Shown in pieces: positions 33,343 through 41,346 of a stretch of 50,282 nt of DNA. The DNA lies in contig JAIQEV010000024.1 of the NCBI GenBank assembly GCA_020073585.1, forward strand, positions 1 through 50,282, given 5' to 3'. The notes under the pieces were generated by a model, which made no database searches, was not told the origin of the DNA, and was given only the letters and a program-made list of their open reading frames with translations. The position numbers were made by a program, and so were the translations under genes. The number at the start of each line of letters is the position of its first letter. Positions within the stretch are counted from its first letter, which is position 1. This stretch comes from Terriglobia bacterium. Its GTDB lineage: Bacteria; Acidobacteriota; Terriglobia; Acidiferrales; UBA7541.

Positions 33343-33751
33343 CGGATGCTCCTTCGCTCTTTTTAAGATTTCGAAAACAACACGCCTGGAAATGGATGGA
33401 AACTTTGCCGCAGGGCGGCGGTTGCACTCTCAAAACGGGAACGGCTTACGAAGAAAAGTACGGCTTAGAGAAGAAACAGCGAGGTGTGGCTACACATGAC
33501 CATGTTGTGGAAGGGCTGCATGGAGACTGCAATCTACCATACCGCCGGGCGCCCAGAACAGGTTTTTTTAGCCGCCGGAAATTCCAAAATGTTCCACGGG
33601 GAACAATTGAGGATGCGAGCCCGGGTGTCCCGGCCGTCCGCGTGCCGGCCTGCGGGCAGAAAGCCCAGCCGCACGCGAAAAGTTGCGCCCAGCGGGCGAA
33701 TTGCCGTTAGAATCGCTGGAGAAGCGGGACGCCGCCGTGCCGCTTTCCGAC
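33343..33751. other. Gene-free region between divergent genes
   Basis: A 409-nt region. The only notable element is the inverted repeat TGTTCCACGGGGAACA at 33590-33605. The RNase R start lies at its right edge. Short open frames are low-complexity and lack ribosome binding sites. Confidence 0.5.
33590..33605. promoter_or_regulatory. 16-bp near-palindrome resembling a parS site
   Basis: TGTTCC-ACGG-GGAACA has perfect 6-bp arms. It differs at one central base from the palindrome TGTTCCACGTGGAACA, which resembles the ParB-binding parS sequence of several bacteria. The mismatch falls in the CACGTG core, so binding is uncertain. Confidence 0.3.
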
Positions 33752-36316
33752 ATGCCTCGCCCGGACACCATCCAGTACGCCGATGTCTTGCATTTTCTGC
33801 AAGATCGGGGAAGTCCTGCGAACACCAATGAAATTGCCGGCGGCCTGCGCCTGCCCAAGCATGCCCGCCGCATGTTGCACAAAATCCTCGCCAAGATGAA
33901 AAAACGCGGCGCCATCGAAGAGCTGCCCGGAGGACGCTACCGCGTCTTCGGCCGCAAGGGCCCCACCCCCGCCGAGGACCGCGAGCGGCACGCGCCTGCC
34001 GCAGCCGGCCGGGACACCGTGACCGGGCGCCTGGTGCTGCACCAGGACGGCTACGGCTTCGTCGTGCCGGAAATCCCGCTGCCGCATCTCGACGGCGACA
34101 TCTTCATCGGCCGCGACGCCATCGAGGACGCCATGCACTCCGACCGCGTCCTCGCCAAGATCACCCGCCTGAGCGGGATCCCCGGCGCGCAACGCGCCGA
34201 AGGGCGCATCCTGCGCGTGCTCGAGCGCGCCCACCCCACGATCGTGGGCCTCTTCCGTTACGGCGCGCGCGGCAACGTCGTCCTGCCCTACGACACCCGC
34301 ATCCAGCACGAAATCGAAATTCCCCCCGGCGAGGAGCTCACCCCCGCGCTGCGCGAGACGCTCGCGGAAAAGCTCGGGCTGCCTCCCGCGGAAGAGCATG
34401 CCGCGCGCGGCCGGCATCCCGCGCATCCGCGGCGCCTGCCGCGCCTGCCCGAACTGGACGGCGCGGTGGTGAACGTCGAGATGGTGCGCTATCCCCGCGG
34501 CGGAGCCGGCGCCACGGGCCGCGTGGTGGAAATCGTGGGCCGTCCGGGCGATATCGGCGTGGATACGGAGATCATCATCCGCAAGCACCACCTGCCGTTC
34601 GTCTTTCCCGGGGATGTGCTCGAGGAGGCCAACGAGCGCGCGCAGCCGGTGAGCGCCCACGACCACGCGGGGCGCGAGGATTTCCGCCACCTGCCCATCG
34701 TCACCATCGACGGCGAGACCGCGCGGGATTTCGACGACGCGGTGTACGTCGAGCGCCGCTCCGATGGCGGCTGGCACCTCGCGGTGCACATCGCCGACGT
34801 CTCGCATTACGTGCGCGCGGGAACCCCCCTGGACCGCGACGCGCGCCTGCGCAGCACCAGCGTCTATTTCCCCAGCCGCGCCGTGCCCATGCTGCCCGAG
34901 GAGCTTTCCAGCGGCATCTGCTCGCTCAAGCCGCACGAAGAGCGTCTGGTGCTCAGCGCCCTGCTCGAGCTGGACGCCGCGGGCCACATGCTCTCGGCGC
35001 GCTTCGTGCCCGGAGTCATCCGCTCCGCCGCGCGCATGACCTACACCAACGTCAACAAGGTGCTGCAGGGCGATGCGGAGACCACCGCGGAGTACGCCGC
35101 GCTGGCCCACCATTTCCAGGACATGCGCGAGCTGGCCCTGCTCCTCAACACGCGCCGCAGCGAGCGCGGCTCCATTGATTTCGACCTCCCCGAGCCGGTC
35201 ATCGAATTCGACGAGCAGTTGCGCATGACCAGCATCTCCCGCAGCGAGCGCAACGACGCCCACCGCCTCATCGAGGAATTCATGCTGGCGGCCAATCGCG
35301 CCGTGGCCGGCTACCTCGAGAATCGCGGCATCGCCTCCCTGCACCGCGTCCACGAAAAGCCGGACGCCAAAAAGGTCCTGGAGTTCGAGGAGCTGGCGCG
35401 GGCTTTCGGCTATTCCCTGGGCGTCGCGGGCCTCTTCGAGCGCGTACTGCCCGTGCGCCACGGGCGCGTACCCGCGCCCGCGCGGCGCGGCCGCCCCGAC
35501 TCCTACGGCCACGGCAGGGAGCGCCCGATGCGCGTGCCGCTCTCCGGCATGGGGGCGGACCCCGGCGCGGAGCTGCGCATCACCCCGCAGCACTACCAGC
35601 GCCTGGTGCAGAAGCTCGCCGGAAAGCCCGAGGAGCGCATCATCTCCTACCTCATGCTGCGCTCGTTGAAGCAGGCGCGCTATGCCGCCGACGCCCTCGG
35701 CCACTTCGCCCTGGGCTTCGACGAGTACACTCATTTCACCTCGCCCATCCGCCGCTATCCCGACCTCATCGTGCACCGCGTCCTGAAGTGGGCCCTGGCG
35801 CATCCGGATTCCGCTGCGCCCTCCTCGCGCGAAACCGCTCCCGCGCGCGGCGCGCCCCGCGGCGCGGAGGCCGCGGTGTACACCCGTCCGCACCTGGAAG
35901 AGCTGGGCACGGAAACCTCGGACGCCGAGCGCCGCGCGGACGCCGCCGAGCGCGAGTTGATGAACTGGAAGCGCGCGCAGTACATGGAAGGGCGGCTGGG
36001 CGATGAGTTCGACGCGCTGATTATTTCCGTGCAGAAGTACGGCTGCTTCGTCGAGCTCTTCGAGGTCTTCGTCGAGGGTCTGCTGCCGGTCAGCGCTCTG
36101 GAAGAGGCCGCGCAGGCCCGCTGCGTCTACCGCGAGCGCGACCACGCGTTGGTGGCGCTCGCTCCGCACGCCCACGGCCGCGCCCCCGCGCGCCACGCCG
36201 CGGCCAAGCCCGCGGCACGCGCCTGGCGCCTGGGCGACCGCGTGCGCGTGCGCGCGGAGCGCATCGATCCCATGCGCCGGCGTGTGGAATTCGCCCTGGT
36301 GAACGCGGAAGGTTGA
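33752..36316 (+). CDS. rnr: Ribonuclease R
   Basis: An 854-residue 3'-5' exoribonuclease degrading structured RNA. Domains in order: N-terminal winged helix (IQYADVLHFLQDRGSPANTNEIAGGL); cold-shock domains around LVLHQDGYGFVVPE; the RNB catalytic core with TARDFDDAVYVERR (catalytic Asp cluster), HIADVSHYVRAGTPLD and SVYFPSRAVPMLPEELSSGICSL; and the C-terminal S1 domain (VQKYGCFVELFEVFVEGLLPVSAL). An insertion of about 30 residues separates HFTSPIRRYPDLIVHR from the S1 region (AAPSSRETAPARGAPRGAEAAVYT). ATG 33752 starts just before the winged helix; a TTG at 33683 and a GTG at 33737 are alternatives. Confidence 0.95.
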   Translation: MPRPDTIQYADVLHFLQDRGSPANTNEIAGGLRLPKHARRMLHKILAKMKKRGAIEELPGGRYRVFGRKGPTPAEDRERHAPAAAGRDTVTGRLVLHQDGYGFVVPEIPLPHLDGDIFIGRDAIEDAMHSDRVLAKITRLSGIPGAQRAEGRILRVLERAHPTIVGLFRYGARGNVVLPYDTRIQHEIEIPPGEELTPALRETLAEKLGLPPAEEHAARGRHPAHPRRLPRLPELDGAVVNVEMVRYPRGGAGATGRVVEIVGRPGDIGVDTEIIIRKHHLPFVFPGDVLEEANERAQPVSAHDHAGREDFRHLPIVTIDGETARDFDDAVYVERRSDGGWHLAVHIADVSHYVRAGTPLDRDARLRSTSVYFPSRAVPMLPEELSSGICSLKPHEERLVLSALLELDAAGHMLSARFVPGVIRSAARMTYTNVNKVLQGDAETTAEYAALAHHFQDMRELALLLNTRRSERGSIDFDLPEPVIEFDEQLRMTSISRSERNDAHRLIEEFMLAANRAVAGYLENRGIASLHRVHEKPDAKKVLEFEELARAFGYSLGVAGLFERVLPVRHGRVPAPARRGRPDSYGHGRERPMRVPLSGMGADPGAELRITPQHYQRLVQKLAGKPEERIISYLMLRSLKQARYAADALGHFALGFDEYTHFTSPIRRYPDLIVHRVLKWALAHPDSAAPSSRETAPARGAPRGAEAAVYTRPHLEELGTETSDAERRADAAERELMNWKRAQYMEGRLGDEFDALIISVQKYGCFVELFEVFVEGLLPVSALEEAAQARCVYRERDHALVALAPHAHGRAPARHAAAKPAARAWRLGDRVRVRAERIDPMRRRVEFALVNAEG

Positions 36317-36392
36317 CCGCTTTGCGGTCACGCGTGAAATTGACCGCTTCGCGGTCACGCATGAAGTTGACCGCTTAGCGGTTACGCTTACC
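36313..36392. repeat. Three tandem copies of a palindromic repeat (27-bp unit)
   Basis: Units at 36313-36339, 36340-36366 and 36367-36392 each open with the palindrome TTGACCGCTT(T/C/A)GCGGTCAC and continue GCxTGAA. The first overlaps the stop codon of RNase R. The same core recurs singly at 37205-37223 and 39775-39793. Confidence 0.85.
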
Positions 36393-36404: not shown

Positions 36405-37196
36405 TCAGCGGAGAAGAGCGCTGGACGGCGCCAGCACGTGCAGTATGCGCCGCGCGGGGCGCGCCACACCGCTCGCCAGCCGCGTGAGCGTGTAGCCCAG
36501 GCTGCTGCGCCGGGAAAACTGCGCGATCAGCAGGCCCAGCATCAACTGCCCCGGCGAATCGAGATCGATGAGGCGGTTGCCGCGATATAGCTTCACGACC
36601 CGCCCGAGAATCTCTTCACGGCCGATGACGCCGTCGGCATGGGGATTGGCGTCGCCCTTGGCAAGGAAACGACGGGTAAGGCGCAGGCCTCGCTTCTCGA
36701 CGATCCGATGAACAAACAACCGGTCCCCGCGCCGGAAGAGAACCACGTCACCGCAGCGCACGGTCTCCGGCGAAGCGTTGTGAATCATCGCGATGTCGTC
36801 CGGCCGCACCCAGGGAAGCATGCTGGCGCCATAGACTCGCAGCGCCACTTGCCCGCGGTCTTGCAGCGCCTCAATCACGGCTTGGGTGTCGCTCGCGCGG
36901 CGCTCCCCGCTGATGCCGCTGGCGCCAGTGCGCCGTTCCACAAACGTTTTTCCACTCTCTTCGGCGCGCGAAAATCCGGGATCGCGCAGCGACGCGGCGC
37001 CCCATGCGGGAAAGGCCGGCCCTCCGGTCGCGAGCACCGGAACGGTGGAGCTTTCCGAAGCGGGCGGGCACAAAGACGCCGCGGAGTTCCCGGAGCGCAG
37101 GGCCGGCGCGGAAGCAGAGGACGCCCTCCGCCGCCGCACGCCTGCCGCGCGGCTGGAGCGCTCCAGCGCTTCGAAGGTTTGCTGTGATCCGGACAT
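36405..37196 (-). CDS. S26/S24-type signal peptidase-like protein
   Basis: About 263 residues. The core (about 110-215) has GASMLPWVRPDDIAMI with the catalytic Ser, CGDVVLFRRGDRLFVHRIV and FLAKGDANPHADGVIGREEILGRVV, the three boxes of S26 peptidases. The general base is expected at the His of FVHRIV, as in archaeal/ER-type enzymes (S26B, SipW), not a Lys. The first 100 residues are low-complexity Ser/Arg/Ala, so a later start (for example GTG 36878) is possible. It is the last gene of the minus-strand operon with kinase, PqqD, radical SAM and peptide genes, where it is a candidate for leader cleavage. A palindromic repeat lies just before ATG 37196. Confidence 0.75.
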   Translation of the reverse strand: MSGSQQTFEALERSSRAAGVRRRRASSASAPALRSGNSAASLCPPASESSTVPVLATGGPAFPAWGAASLRDPGFSRAEESGKTFVERRTGASGISGERRASDTQAVIEALQDRGQVALRVYGASMLPWVRPDDIAMIHNASPETVRCGDVVLFRRGDRLFVHRIVEKRGLRLTRRFLAKGDANPHADGVIGREEILGRVVKLYRGNRLIDLDSPGQLMLGLLIAQFSRRSSLGYTLTRLASGVARPARRILHVLAPSSALLR

Positions 37197-37204
37197 TTTC
37201 CCGT

Positions 37205-37223
37205 GTGACTGCGAAGCGGTCAA
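37205..37223 (-). repeat. Single copy of the palindromic repeat
   Basis: Minus-strand TTGACCGCTTCGCAGTCAC, one base off the unit at 36340. It lies directly upstream of the signal-peptidase start codon. Confidence 0.7.
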
Positions 37224-37403
37224 CGCTTGACCCTGCACCCAGCCGCAGCCGGCGCCCAAGCACCGTCGCGACGGCAAAGGAGCAGGTCCCCGCGAGTAGA
37301 GTGTTGCTTCCGGAGATACCGGTCAACAATCGGTTCTATCGGATTTGTCCAAAGTAACAGCAGGGTGGATGAGAACCAGCGCCGCTTCCCTGCGGCCCGG
37401 GAC

Positions 37404-37565
37404 TCAGGAAGTTTTGTTCCCCGGGCCTGAGCAGGTGCCTATGGAGTTCACCTTGTGGCACGCCAGGGCCTGGGTTTCGTAGATGGGCTCCGAGGAGACG
37501 CTGGGCTTGCTGTACGGCTTCTTGCCCGTGGGCGTTTCCGGCGGCGTCTTGTGATTTTCGGTCAT
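37404..37565 (-). CDS. Candidate RiPP precursor peptide (53 residues)
   Basis: An unannotated small gene. ATG 37565 overlaps the radical SAM stop as ATGA and follows AGGAAAGGA by 8 nt, so translation is likely coupled. The product has a hydrophilic N-terminus (T-E-N-H-K-T-P-P-E), a K-K-P-Y-S-K-P segment at 15-21, then E26-P-I-Y-E-T-Q-A-L-A-C36-H-K-V and a short Gly/Ser tail with C45, ending N-K-T-S. Two Cys nine residues apart, a conserved-looking leader-like middle and its position beside a radical SAM/SPASM enzyme fit a RiPP precursor with a Cys-containing core. A GGCCCGGG/CCCGGGCC hairpin spans its stop (37394-37427). Precursor status is inference. Confidence 0.65.
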   Translation of the reverse strand: MTENHKTPPETPTGKKPYSKPSVSSEPIYETQALACHKVNSIGTCSGPGNKTS

Positions 37566-38797
37566 GCGTCGTGTCCTTTCCTATAGAACGAATTGTCCGT
37601 GGTCACAAGAAAGTTTGTTTTGCAGGGCCCGACGGCCTGCCGCGCCGTAGCGCCCGGCGCATGCAGGGCGCTGAGCGGGTGGGCCACGCCCGCGAGACGC
37701 GCCTTTTGCTCGGCGAGCTCGCAGGCGCGCTCGTACGCACCCAGTACGTCGCCCCCTTCCATCAAAGCCAGCCCGGGACAGCGCTCGCAATAGCTGCGAA
37801 TCTCGCAGCTCCCGCAGACGGGCAACTGGCTGTCGCGCACCGCGCGCAGTTGCTCGAGCGACTCGGCGTGGTACCAGATGTCCCTGAAACGCTGGCGCCG
37901 CAAGTTGCCTGCAGGAACCGGCAACTGCACGCAGGGAAGAACATCGCCGTACGGAGAAATGTACACACTGTTGTGGCCGGCGCTGCACGGGATGTCCTCA
38001 TAGGCGGCAAATTCGAAACCGCTGGAGACGGCGCTGGTCAATGAAGGGACGGGCTTCCCGGAAGGCATGGCGGCATCCGTCTGGGCGGCGGGTCGCGGGT
38101 AGCAGGCGCTCAAGACGGGATCCTGCAGGACGGGCAAGAGCGCCGCGGTGGAGACGCGATGTATCAGCGGTCCGCCGGAGCCGTCCATCATGGGCGTGAT
38201 GGTGGGGTCGAAACTATAGGAAGCGCCAAGTTTTTCGGCGAGGGCCATGACCCCGCGGTAGGCCAGCAGGTTCTGCGGCATCAGCGGGCAGGCCAGCTTC
38301 ACCTTCAAACCCTGTGCAACGAGCAGCGGGACCGCGGCCAGGGTGCGTTCGTGCGAGCCGGGAATCTTGGTGATGGCGTCATGCACCGCCGGCTCGTCGC
38401 TATAGACGCTGATCTGGATGCTGCGCACGCCCGACTCGCGCAAGCGGGCGGCGTGTTCCGCGCTGATGAGCAGGGCGTTGGTCTTGAGGCTGATGTCGAA
38501 GTGCAACCGGCGCGCTGCGGCCAGAATTTCGAAGAAATCGGGACGCAGAAATATTTCGCCCCCGCTGAACGTCAGGGTGAGAATCCCGGCGGCCGCCAAT
38601 TCCTCCAGCACCCGGAGAATTTCCGCGGTGGTGAGTTCGCCGTGGTCCTCATGGTCGAGATAGCAATGCACGCAGCGCTCGTTGCAGCGGTAGGTGAGGT
38701 CAAAGTGCGCATTGAGCGGGTGGTGCTTGCGCGCGGCGCGCGAAGCCACGCGGTCCATCACGGAAGCAGCAGCGGCATGTGCCGCGGTGCTCAACAC
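37562..38797 (-). CDS. Radical SAM/SPASM peptide-modifying enzyme
   Basis: About 411 residues. The radical SAM cluster motif C38-N-E-R-C42-V-H-C45 follows HFDLTYR, then TFSGGEIFLRPDF (GGE motif). The C-terminal SPASM domain supplies auxiliary Fe-S ligands: CSAGHNSVYISPYGDVLPCVQLPVPAGNL, CGSCEIRSYCERCPG and a later Cys. Such enzymes install thioether or carbon-carbon links in peptides. GTG 38797 overlaps the pqqD-like stop by 7 nt and has GGAG 4 nt upstream; ATG 38758 is the alternative. It is translationally coupled to the small peptide gene at its 3' end. The PqqD-like protein encoded just upstream should deliver the substrate. Confidence 0.93.
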   Translation of the reverse strand: MLSTAAHAAAASVMDRVASRAARKHHPLNAHFDLTYRCNERCVHCYLDHEDHGELTTAEILRVLEELAAAGILTLTFSGGEIFLRPDFFEILAAARRLHFDISLKTNALLISAEHAARLRESGVRSIQISVYSDEPAVHDAITKIPGSHERTLAAVPLLVAQGLKVKLACPLMPQNLLAYRGVMALAEKLGASYSFDPTITPMMDGSGGPLIHRVSTAALLPVLQDPVLSACYPRPAAQTDAAMPSGKPVPSLTSAVSSGFEFAAYEDIPCSAGHNSVYISPYGDVLPCVQLPVPAGNLRRQRFRDIWYHAESLEQLRAVRDSQLPVCGSCEIRSYCERCPGLALMEGGDVLGAYERACELAEQKARLAGVAHPLSALHAPGATARQAVGPCKTNFLVTTDNSFYRKGHDA

Positions 38798-39087
38798 GCG
38801 GCTCCGTCCGCGGCTGCCGCGGTCACCAGCAGCGCGCTCGCGGCCAGTTGCTGCAGCAGCGCTTCGGTGTCGGCCAGCGCATCTTCCGGCGGTACTTCGT
38901 ATTCGGCGGCCAGCATCCCGGCGATCTCCGCGGCCGAGCAGCGCCCGTCGATCTGCCGCCAGATGAAGCTGCCCGTCTCGTTGAGTTCGTGCATCACGTT
39001 GTCGCTCGGCGAGATGATCACCGTTTCGCCGTCGATCGCCCGCCAGGCCACAATTGGATTCTTCTGCCAGCGAATCGTCTTCCTCAT
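38791..39087 (-). CDS. PqqD-family peptide chaperone (RRE domain)
   Basis: A 98-residue protein. The PqqD pattern is clear: W-R-A-I-D-G-E-T-V-I-I-S-P-S-D-N, then MHELNETGSFIWRQIDGRCSAAEIAGMLAAEYEV with the conserved LNETGSxIWxxIDG turn. A final helix (ALADTEALLQQLAASALL) follows. PqqD-like RRE domains bind the leader peptide and present it to the radical SAM partner. ATG 39087 overlaps the kinase-like stop as ATGA, and its own stop overlaps the radical SAM GTG. The Ala-rich C-terminal tail ends in Cys. Confidence 0.92.
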   Translation of the reverse strand: MRKTIRWQKNPIVAWRAIDGETVIISPSDNVMHELNETGSFIWRQIDGRCSAAEIAGMLAAEYEVPPEDALADTEALLQQLAASALLVTAAAADGAAC

Positions 39088-39908
39088 GCGGGCAGAACCT
39101 CCCAAACCGTTCTTTCTTTGCGGAATTCCAGATCGTGTCCGGGAATCTCTTCCGCCGCGCCGCCGAGAATCTCCAGGAGCCGCCGCTGGGCTGCGGGCTG
39201 CGCGGAAAAAAACAGCACATTCGGCAACAGCACGCGCAGCAGCTCCGCCTGGCGCAGCGGCGCCACGCGATTCTCCGGCGCCTGCACCAGCCGGAAAATG
39301 CCGGCCACCGGAGCGCTGGTATTCACGTCCCCGGCGCGAAATTCACCCCAGAACGGCGTGCCGTAGGCGCGCCAGCCGCCCTCCTCGCAACGCAGCAGCG
39401 AGATCTCGTCGGTCAGCACGCTGCCTTCCGGAGCCAGGGACGCCAGCGTGCTCTTCCCCGCGCCGGAACGCCCGGTGAAGACAAAGGCCCGGCCGTTCCG
39501 CACGACGGTGGCGGCATGCAGCAGGAACCCGCTGCGGGGCAGGAGAATCCACGAGAACAGCATGCGCAGCAGGGAATCGAACGCATACTCATGGCGCACC
39601 CCGCTGAAGACCGCTTCCCCGGCGCGGCAGTGCAGCCGGGCCTCCTGCCACTCGTAGGAAAAATCCGGAACGCCCTCTGCCAGCTCGTCCGAGTCCACAA
39701 CGCGGATGGCAAATGGCTCTCCATCCGCTCCTTGAAACGCCGCGTAGCGGGCCGCGGCTGAATGATAAAGAGTGTTGACCGCTTCGCGGTCGCTCATATA
39801 ATCGTTCGGAAAGAAGACACGGAAGGGCACGCTGCCGATGGAAAATTCAAGCGTTTGTGTCGGACGGCGAACTAATGCAACGTGCGGTACTCCCAAGTGT
39901 CTCCTCAT
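39084..39908 (-). CDS. HPr kinase-like (HprK-related) P-loop protein
   Basis: A 274-residue protein of the HprK-related kinase family that accompanies PqqD and peptide-maturation genes. Walker A GRSGAGKST lies at about 146-154, preceded by the characteristic SGFLLHAATVVRNGRAFVFTG. VLTDEISLLR and PFWGEFR downstream match the HprK fold. It lacks the rest of HPr kinase and no HPr gene is nearby. Relatives ThcoK and PadeK phosphorylate the C-terminal Ser of lasso peptides, and the peptide encoded here ends in Ser; that link is inference. Residues 39-45 (S-D-R-E-A-V-N) are encoded by a copy of the palindromic repeat. ATG 39908 is chosen because the frame gives a beta-strand N-terminal domain; ATG 39795 is possible. 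Confidence 0.85.
   Translation of the reverse strand: MRRHLGVPHVALVRRPTQTLEFSIGSVPFRVFFPNDYMSDREAVNTLYHSAAARYAAFQGADGEPFAIRVVDSDELAEGVPDFSYEWQEARLHCRAGEAVFSGVRHEYAFDSLLRMLFSWILLPRSGFLLHAATVVRNGRAFVFTGRSGAGKSTLASLAPEGSVLTDEISLLRCEEGGWRAYGTPFWGEFRAGDVNTSAPVAGIFRLVQAPENRVAPLRQAELLRVLLPNVLFFSAQPAAQRRLLEILGGAAEEIPGHDLEFRKERTVWEVLPA
39775..39793. repeat. Palindromic repeat copy inside the HprK-like gene
   Basis: TTGACCGCTTCGCGGTCGC, matching the 36340 unit except for one base. It falls in frame within the kinase-like coding region, adding about six codons. Confidence 0.75.
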
Positions 39909-40227: not shown

Positions 40228-41346
40228 GTGAGTTTCCCCACAGTCAGTGCGCACAACGCCAAGCGTGTTTTCAATTTCAACGCCGGCCCGGGAGCCCTGC
40301 CGCTTCCCGTCCTCGAGCGCATCCGCGAGGAGCTGCTCGATTACCGCGGCTGCGGCATGTCCGTGATGGAGATGAGCCACCGCTCGCCGGAATTCGAGGA
40401 GATCAACGCCCGCGCGGAACAGGGGCTGCGCAAGCACCTGGGAATCCCCGGCGACTACGCGGTGATTTTCGTGCAAGGCGGCGGCAGCATGCAGTTCACC
40501 ATGGTGCCCATGAACCTGTGCCTCCCGGGCAAGCCCGTGGACGTGCTGCACACCGGCAGCTGGACCGCCAAAGCCATCGCCGAGCTGAAGAAAGGCGTGG
40601 CCCACCGCATCGCGGCGACCACGGAAGCCGAAAAATTCACGCGCGTGCCCCGTCCGGAAGAGATTTCGCTCTCCCCCGGCGCCTCCTACGTCTACCTGTG
40701 CACCAACAACACCATCGAGGGCACGCAGTGGACGGCGCTGCCGGAAACCGGCGGAGTGCCGCTGGTCGCGGACATGTCTTCGGATATCGCCTCGCGCCCC
40801 GTGGACGTCAAGAAGTTCGGCCTGATCTTCGCCGGCGCCCAGAAAAACCTCGGCCCCTCCGGCGCCACCGTGGTGATCGTGCGCAAGGACCTGGCCGAGC
40901 GCGCCGACAAAAATCTCCCGACTCTCCTGCAGTACCGCACGCACATCAAGGACAAATCGCTCTATCACACCCCGCCGACCTTCGCGGTCTACATCATCGG
41001 CCTGGTGAACGAGTGGATCGAAGCGCAGGGCGGCCTCGCCGGCATGGAAAAGCGTAACGCCGCCAAAGCCCAGGTGCTCTATGACGCCCTGGATGCCGGC
41101 GGCTTCTATGCCTGCCCGGTGGAAAAGGCCTCGCGCTCGAAGATGAACGTGGTCTTCCGCGTGGCCGGCGGAAACGAAGCCCTCGAAAAACAGTTCGCGC
41201 TGGAAGCCACCGCGGCGGGCCTCATCGGCCTGGCCGGGCACCGATCGGTGGGCGGCATGCGCGCCTCGCTCTACAACGCGGTATCGCTCGAAGCGGTGCA
41301 GGCGCTGGTCAGCTTCATGCGCGAGTTCCAGCGTACCCGCGGTTAG
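40228..41346 (+). CDS. serC: Phosphoserine aminotransferase
   Basis: A 372-residue PLP enzyme making 3-phosphoserine from 3-phosphohydroxypyruvate in serine synthesis (also used in pyridoxine synthesis). It has VFNFNAGPGALPLPVLERIREELLDYRGCGMSVMEMSHRSPEF at the N-terminus and VIFVQGGGSMQFTMVPMNL. The PLP Lys is in FAGAQKNLGPSGATVVIVRKDL, and GHRSVGGMRASLYNAV is near the end, all diagnostic of SerC. GTG 40228 follows GAGAGGA. Length is typical. It stands alone; serA and serB are not adjacent. Confidence 0.98.
   Translation: MSFPTVSAHNAKRVFNFNAGPGALPLPVLERIREELLDYRGCGMSVMEMSHRSPEFEEINARAEQGLRKHLGIPGDYAVIFVQGGGSMQFTMVPMNLCLPGKPVDVLHTGSWTAKAIAELKKGVAHRIAATTEAEKFTRVPRPEEISLSPGASYVYLCTNNTIEGTQWTALPETGGVPLVADMSSDIASRPVDVKKFGLIFAGAQKNLGPSGATVVIVRKDLAERADKNLPTLLQYRTHIKDKSLYHTPPTFAVYIIGLVNEWIEAQGGLAGMEKRNAAKAQVLYDALDAGGFYACPVEKASRSKMNVVFRVAGGNEALEKQFALEATAAGLIGLAGHRSVGGMRASLYNAVSLEAVQALVSFMREFQRTRG

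Follow-up and report, generated by a model that had tools for sequence, protein, structure and literature searches.

In the linear polyphosphorylated peptide (LPP) system of Paenibacillus alginolyticus, passages of the report on the lpp cluster (Nat Commun 2026, PMC13381572) describe how LppB binds a YxxP leader, LppK adds several phosphates to core Ser3 and LppS, which requires LppB, cleaves after F-E-T. The same passages state that LPP is restricted to Bacillota, and the terms "radical SAM" and "Acidobacteri" are absent from the main text. For lasso peptides, passages of PMC9266682 report that the kinases PadeK, ThcoK and SyanK phosphorylate the C-terminal Ser of the precursor and that PsmN adds hexoses there. 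Phosphorylation at Ser3 by BsfK, a kinase stimulated by its recognition element, is described in part of PMC10368454, and W/Y/LxxP motifs are given for the recognition elements of lasso, pyrroloquinoline quinone (PQQ) and sactipeptide systems in part of PMC12710340. Here we analyzed a 50,282-nucleotide stretch of a Terriglobia bacterium genome (contig JAIQEV010000024.1, hereafter the window), which carries on its minus strand, at 36405-39908, genes for an HprK-like kinase, a PqqD-type recognition element, a radical S-adenosylmethionine (SAM)/SPASM enzyme, a 53-residue peptide and an S26 peptidase.

This operon is almost certainly a locus for a ribosomally synthesized and post-translationally modified peptide (RiPP). 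It is real and widespread, and it would operate as LPP does, plus a radical SAM step. As a whole it is best explained, with a probability of roughly 0.75, as encoding a peptide that is presented by the RiPP recognition element (RRE), modified by the radical SAM enzyme, phosphorylated by the kinase and cleaved by the S26 peptidase. By analogy with LPP and the phosphorylated lasso peptides, the RRE would bind the leader at Y-S-K-P and hand it to the enzymes, the kinase would put one or more phosphates on the C-terminal Ser, and the peptidase would cleave the leader after Y-E-T to leave the 22-residue core QALACHKVNSIGTCSGPGNKTS. The radical SAM/SPASM enzyme may modify the two-Cys core, where one or two Cys-based (thioether) bridges would be the likeliest products.

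Operon layout and recurrence in relatives

All five minus-strand reading frames of the initial annotation were found in place by open reading frame (ORF) analysis and domain matches, with the following features:

39084..39908, minus strand: HprK/PEPCK-fold kinase gene, with His131, P-loop GRSGAGKST and Asp167-Glu168; predicted target, the C-terminal Ser of the precursor
38791..39087, minus strand: PqqD-type RRE gene (PF05402, 5.3e-21); predicted leader binder
37562..38797, minus strand: radical SAM/SPASM gene, GTG start; C38xxxC42xxC45 and seven more Cys invariant in 31 aligned sequences
37404..37565, minus strand: 53-residue precursor peptide gene, from its conserved family and dN/dS
37473..37565, minus strand: predicted leader, residues 1-31, with a Y-E-T end likened to the LPP cleavage site after F-E-T
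37503..37514, minus strand: leader Y-S-K-P motif, predicted RRE-binding site by the motif logic of published RRE papers; Y and P invariant (69/69)
37407..37472, minus strand: predicted 22-residue core, from the landmark alignment of precursors
37458..37460, minus strand: Cys36, core position 5, invariant (69/69)
37431..37433, minus strand: Cys45, core position 14, invariant (69/69)
37407..37409, minus strand: Ser53, C-terminal, predicted phosphorylation site from conservation
36405..37196, minus strand: S26 peptidase gene, archaeal/Sec11 (Ser-His) type; part common to relatives about 36405-36950; start uncertain, ATG 37196 or TTG 37277

The packed overlaps described earlier hold for three junctions. 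The kinase and PqqD genes overlap by 4 nt (ATGA), the PqqD stop is overlapped by the GTG start of the radical SAM gene, and the radical SAM stop is overlapped by the ATG of the peptide gene (ATGA). The S26 gene, however, comes after a gap, its frame opening 126 nt (TTG) or 207 nt (ATG) past the peptide gene. Its start is uncertain because the stretch common to closer relatives begins later than either codon.

To compare relatives, 109 loci were fetched using the radical SAM protein, from a search of 101 genomes (32 matched) and a scan of genome contigs (79 loci kept). Some species are present in both collections and the loci are not all independent. With profiles grown from the window proteins, a precursor of the window family was found in 76 of 109 loci. 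Once three hits were dropped (L036, an antisense chance match; L058, frameshifted; L097, truncated), 76 clean precursor ORFs remained in 74 loci, amounting to 69 distinct sequences with the window's included; the frameshifted L163 was also dropped before counting. The 35 loci without a clean precursor comprise some short stretches, eight with a distant precursor type and other, distant radical SAM loci. The radical SAM gene is present in all 74 loci by construction, since it was used to fetch them. Within the retrieved stretches, the kinase gene accompanies a clean precursor in 72 of the 74 loci and the S26 gene in 64.

Conserved gene order was found in two forms. Twenty-one of the 74 loci share the window's order, kinase-PqqD-radical SAM-peptide(-S26), and 53 have peptide-S26-kinase-PqqD-radical SAM, an order seen in loci titled Lysobacterales, Thermomonas and Burkholderiales. 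The precursor family thus spans Acidobacteriota and Pseudomonadota. In the reverse direction, 396 genomes of the phylum were searched using only the precursor profile, and 27 matched at E 0.01. Eight matches fell below 1e-14, and six of these have a radical SAM gene and a kinase nearby (G000, G082, G169:C61, G217 and G180 twice), so the small ORF does adjoin the radical SAM gene in relatives. In other classes the weak matches fall on short ORFs with Y-x-x-P, for example MKKPYEKPAIVHTEKIEARAVSCSKSNDACGTGPLTS. The window's own genome gave one real match, the two others reaching only E 0.23 and 1.17.

The peptide itself is under purifying selection, with dN 0.11 and dS 0.49 against its nearest relative (L002) and dN 0.10 and dS 1.08 for the L003/L004 precursor pair. 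Together with a gene set that recurs in dozens of loci, this makes the operon more than a chance arrangement. The 69 distinct precursors share Tyr18, Pro21, Cys36 and Cys45 without exception, and all have Y-x-x-P, exactly two core Cys and the leader-end motif [FY][EV][TVI]-x-[AS][LV]-x-C ([FY]ET in 53, FVT/FVI in 11, FEV in 5). The last residue is Ser in 69/69 distinct precursors and 76/76 clean ORFs; since every one of them is encoded by TCN, codon usage says little more about this conservation. The stretch after the leader-end motif, the predicted core, is 22 residues long in 56 of 69 and 21-24 across all. Nine residues lie between the two Cys in 57 of 69, and eight in the window's precursor. 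Lys38 is kept in 68/69, the third core residue is Leu (68) or Val (1), and the net charge (K+R-D-E) most often seen for the cores is +3. Of the 69 cores, 12 have the last Ser as their sole Ser/Thr; these 12 all belong to the LALACGKxPGQGG type, and the window's core is not among them. The window peptide matches no family in Pfam or NCBIfam, and at E 0.01 the 69 precursors gave no Pfam match and one marginal NCBIfam match (actinodefensin, 0.0064, one member); this is a recognizable family for which neither database, that match aside, has a model. Two loci, L035 (7187-10289) and L037 (7187-10378), each carry the precursor twice, the copies lying some 3 kb from each other and having an identical predicted core.

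Kinase, C-terminal serine and leader peptidase

The kinase reached no curated cut-off in the domain scan, and its profile gave weak P-loop matches only against PDB sequences. Its AlphaFold2 (AF2) model (mean predicted local distance difference test, pLDDT, 91.7) matched ATP-dependent PEPCKs in Foldseek at 5.8e-8 and Mycoplasma pneumoniae HprK/P at 2.3e-4. VIA-align matched the model to PEPCK (Z 14.5, 4.8 A over 240 residues); HprK/P, though present in the Foldseek results, is absent among the 50 VIA-align matches listed. Across 38 aligned sequences no substitution occurs at His131, Gly146, Ser148, Gly151, Lys152, Thr154, Asp167 or Glu168.

The presence of a kinase goes along with a precursor that ends in Ser. 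This holds for 72/72 loci of the window family with both, for 8/8 loci of the distant type with -AVLGHCK- precursors and for 12/12 further acidobacterial loci (L142, L146, L148, L151, L154, L155, L160, L162, L164, L165, L167 and L168, the last repeating L087), as well as for L109, L187 and L214. Precursors near radical SAM genes without a kinase end in Cys (L106, L107, L108), Gly (L102) or Gln (L213). The precursors of L102, L105-L109, L187, L213 and L214 were chosen by eye among Y-x-x-P ORFs rather than by profile, and in L210, L211, L212 and L226, where a kinase is present, no precursor was identified. In fifteen acidobacterial genomes the precursor ends in Ser or, once, in Thr (L159), and the retrieved stretch lacks a kinase; all 15 have one elsewhere at E 7.5e-15 or better, in four cases (G131, G188, G249, G265) on the same contig 10-20 kb off. 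Where the precursor ends otherwise (G490, G492, G494, G694), three of four genomes have no kinase at 1e-6 and one has a weak 51-position P-loop match. These data fit the idea that the kinase explains the last Ser, and, by analogy with the lasso kinases, the C-terminal Ser is quite likely the phosphorylated residue. As a separate observation, the L107 (5040-5192) and L106 (5440-5679) precursors, from Methylococcaceae and Lamprocystis PqqD/radical SAM loci, are of a different type ending ...PCGC, and the locus profile scan found no kinase there.

The S26 protein matched Peptidase_S24 (3.1e-6) and, just under the cut-off of 51.85 bits, the archaeal-type signal peptidase family TIGR02228 (48.2 bits). 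Its nearest PDB match is Sec11C (4e-11), and in 28 sequences neither the GxSMxP Ser nor His83, Asp102 or Asp108 varies, which bears out the Ser/His signal-peptidase core read earlier. A clear transmembrane helix did not emerge: the top 19-residue Kyte-Doolittle mean is 1.11 in the window protein, and 2 of 85 S26 matches reach 1.6. Thus, of the peptide first proposed (radical-SAM-modified, perhaps phosphorylated and cut by a membrane peptidase), the comparative counts for kinase and S26 genes and the LPP precedent favor all but the word "membrane". Because the leader end matches the LPP F-E-T cleavage site, the cut is predicted after Y-E-T, and cleavage after [FY]ET is probable across the family on the same analogy. 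A cut at A-x-A just before the first Cys was dropped as a candidate; in some relatives Cys36 follows Ile, Arg or Phe, and LPP cuts after F-E-T.

Several observations weigh against this scheme. Within the retrieved stretches, S26 is absent from 10 of 74 loci and the kinase from two, L013 and L061, which have an identical precursor sequence. Five loci (L038, L050, L056, L062, L096) have kinase, PqqD, radical SAM and ample flank, yet no clean family precursor, while L166 (G360) and the frameshifted L163 are strong precursor matches with neither a radical SAM gene nor a kinase in the retrieved stretch. In L105 the kinase, peptidase and radical SAM genes stand with a precursor whose last residue is Val. 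The association of the kinase with a terminal Ser is also confounded by phylogeny and does not include the background kinase rate. The phosphosite is argued by conservation alone, since LPP Ser3 is Leu or Val here, and the window core carries four Ser/Thr besides its C-terminal Ser. Lasso kinases are described as having Asp-Asp (passages of PMC9266682) at the place where this kinase has Asp-Glu. Lastly, the window operon has no transporter or propeller beside it.

Bridge chemistry, neighbors and alternative explanations

The Radical_SAM (4.5e-24) and SPASM (8.9e-12) domains were, like PqqD and S24, placed over the Pfam cut-off. Against the PDB, the radical SAM profile found SkfB best (3e-25), then PqqE (3.6e-20) and 5v1q (4e-14), which we take to be SuiB; the StsB family score is 90.6 bits, the cut-off being 625. 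Streptide, cyclophanes and PQQ represent aromatic crosslink chemistries, and these were ruled out as family-wide because 47 of 69 cores have no Trp, Phe or Tyr; Cys-based bridging is the likelier on the same ground. Two invariant Cys and the similarity to SkfB are consistent with a sactipeptide Cys-to-alpha-carbon thioether, and thioether chemistry at Cys is our tentative suggestion, at close to even odds.

The same evidence would suit a sactipeptide-type RiPP and nothing more, in which the radical SAM enzyme forms Cys-to-alpha-carbon thioethers, while the kinase is a relic or has its target outside this pathway. The two invariant Cys, the few aromatics and the SkfB relationship all agree with it, whereas the catalytic residues of the kinase are invariant in 38 sequences, its gene is kept in nearly every locus and the C-terminal Ser is found in 69/69. 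We therefore regard this explanation as unlikely. True membership of the LPP family, in which the radical SAM enzyme would be an accessory, would account for the shared set of RRE, kinase and SpI-type peptidase and for the near-identical leader end. However, Ser3 is missing in 69/69, 6 of 8 precursors from the search that made no use of the radical SAM gene have that gene nearby and the loci lie outside Bacillota, making membership highly unlikely.

The genes around the operon bear on a third explanation. For 69 precursor loci more than 1500 nt of upstream sequence was available. The gene directly upstream encodes a large protein that looks secreted in 28 of them and an ABC-2 permease in 15. 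The remaining 26 have neither, and 21 of those are arranged as in the window, with the radical SAM gene ahead of the peptide. The family profile of the secreted-looking protein matched PQQ-type and BamB propellers (designed Cake9, 6tjh, 6e-20; 3hxj, 4e-7), and two examples had no Pfam match. One of these proteins was modeled with AF2 (pLDDT 82.5) and consists largely of strands, with Cake9 as top Foldseek match; many propeller families were matched, which adds the general fold only. Eleven window-order loci have a downstream protein of another family, that of L103 with CBM96 and PQQ_2 over cut-off and that of L033 with CBM96 and a propeller match below cut-off. A PF14907 nucleotidyltransferase family member is found in 35 of 74 loci; in the window genome there is one, on a different contig. 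In relatives these neighbors suggest that the peptide is exported and acts at the surface, and they give nothing direct for the window. A PQQ-like redox-cofactor precursor serving the secreted PQQ/BamB-type propeller would explain both PqqD with the SPASM enzyme and the 28 upstream propeller genes, but it has very little probability: in PqqA the crosslinked core residues are Glu and Tyr, while Trp or Tyr occurs in only 3 of 69 cores and not in the window's, an ABC-2 permease takes the upstream place in 15 loci, the propeller fold does not show a cofactor site, and the window genome has no propeller match at E 1, a search that lacked a positive control and so proves little. A polysaccharide or anchoring locus was set aside, the flanks being presumably rnr (33683-36316) and serC (40228-41346). 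Because the comparative evidence fits and LPP gives a precedent with the same kinase/RRE/peptidase logic, the modified-peptide proposal of the initial annotation is supported.

Returning to the phosphorylated, radical-SAM-modified peptide, a fuller picture is possible but rather doubtful: a 22-residue peptide bridged through its two Cys, (poly)phosphorylated at the C-terminal Ser, in relatives perhaps glycosylated there, and acting with the secreted PQQ/BamB-type beta-propeller of the same operon in many relatives. The repeated pairing with secreted beta-propellers is a lead to the role of such peptides. Separately, other Acidobacteriota classes have orphan short precursors (MKKPYEKPAI...C...S) no more than about 3 kb from genes for large repeat proteins (L143, 60-2525; L147, 557-3151; L153, 8645-11197) that look to us like FG-GAP/VCBS propellers, an echo of the propeller pairing in the window family's relatives.

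The window also contains a palindromic repeat with core GACCGCGAAGCGGTCAA, often in tandem 27 bp apart (36313-36385, 37205-37223, 39775-39793). Five copies occur in the window against 0.06 expected, and 193 genome-wide at one mismatch or fewer, the reversed pattern giving 0. One copy is in frame within the kinase gene, at a place where the window kinase has nine residues lacking in the other 37 aligned kinases. This in-frame copy is reminiscent of Rickettsia palindromic elements.

Comparison with known systems

The SynChlorMet cassette (NCBIfam ScmC/ScmD/ScmE/ScmF) also joins, by family names, HprK-related, PqqD-related and radical SAM/SPASM proteins. It differs in having two radical SAM proteins where the window has one, and all scores are far under cut-off (ScmC 47.2/125 bits, ScmD 32.8/100, ScmE 96.9/400, ScmF 71.4/400). 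In open-licence PMC articles, preprints excluded, searches for SynChlorMet or HprK-related names gave unrelated papers only, and no RiPP system with radical SAM, HPr kinase and PqqD was among the papers listed. The "HPr kinase" passages of PMC4289311 concern lasso clusters, and PMC8692599, in the part used, describes a different system from that of the window. Sactipeptide maturases (SkfB; StsB with the RRE StsC) share the SPASM enzyme and Cys-containing core, SkfB being nearest in the PDB; the kinase and S26 peptidase are added here.

The phosphorylated lasso peptides (paeninodin, pseudomycoidin; PadeK, ThcoK, SyanK, PsmK/PsmN; passages of PMC9266682) have in common with the window family an HprK-like kinase, a C-terminal Ser and, near many relatives, a nucleotidyltransferase. 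In contrast, the window has an S26 peptidase and a radical SAM enzyme and no B2 peptidase match. The lasso B2 leader peptidase PF13471 had no match in its genome at E 0.01, while 3 of 14 control genomes matched, and no asparagine-synthetase-like cyclase is among the five operon proteins, the genome not having been searched for one. A lasso cluster was therefore rejected, in agreement with the earlier view that this is not a canonical one.

LPP is closer. In both systems a discrete RRE, an HprK-like kinase and an archaeal-type signal peptidase are encoded together, the leader has YxxP and ends F/Y-E-T, and an NTP transferase is near (here in the 35 loci with PF14907). Compared with the LPP leader YxxPxV...FET, Y..P is kept in 69/69 and [FY]ET in 53/69, with the Y-to-ET distance two residues shorter here. 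The LPP acceptor Ser stands at core position 3 (FETxxS), whereas that position is Leu or Val here and the LPP phosphosite is thus absent. LPP is linear, with no cyclizing or bridging enzyme, while the window's radical SAM/SPASM gene overlaps the precursor gene; additionally, the invariant C-terminal Ser, the two Cys and the hosts set the window family apart. Because a tested feature fails for each, we filed the locus under neither LPP nor lasso peptides; it is not assigned to the sactipeptides either, whose thioether is a matter for mass spectrometry. If the proposed product is correct, it would be the first phosphorylated, radical-SAM-bridged RiPP in the literature searched. The kinase/RRE/signal-peptidase logic reported in 2026 as confined to Bacillota is also found, with an added radical SAM enzyme, in Acidobacteriota and Pseudomonadota, and the phosphorylated peptides first reported there very probably reach into further phyla and gain new chemistry.

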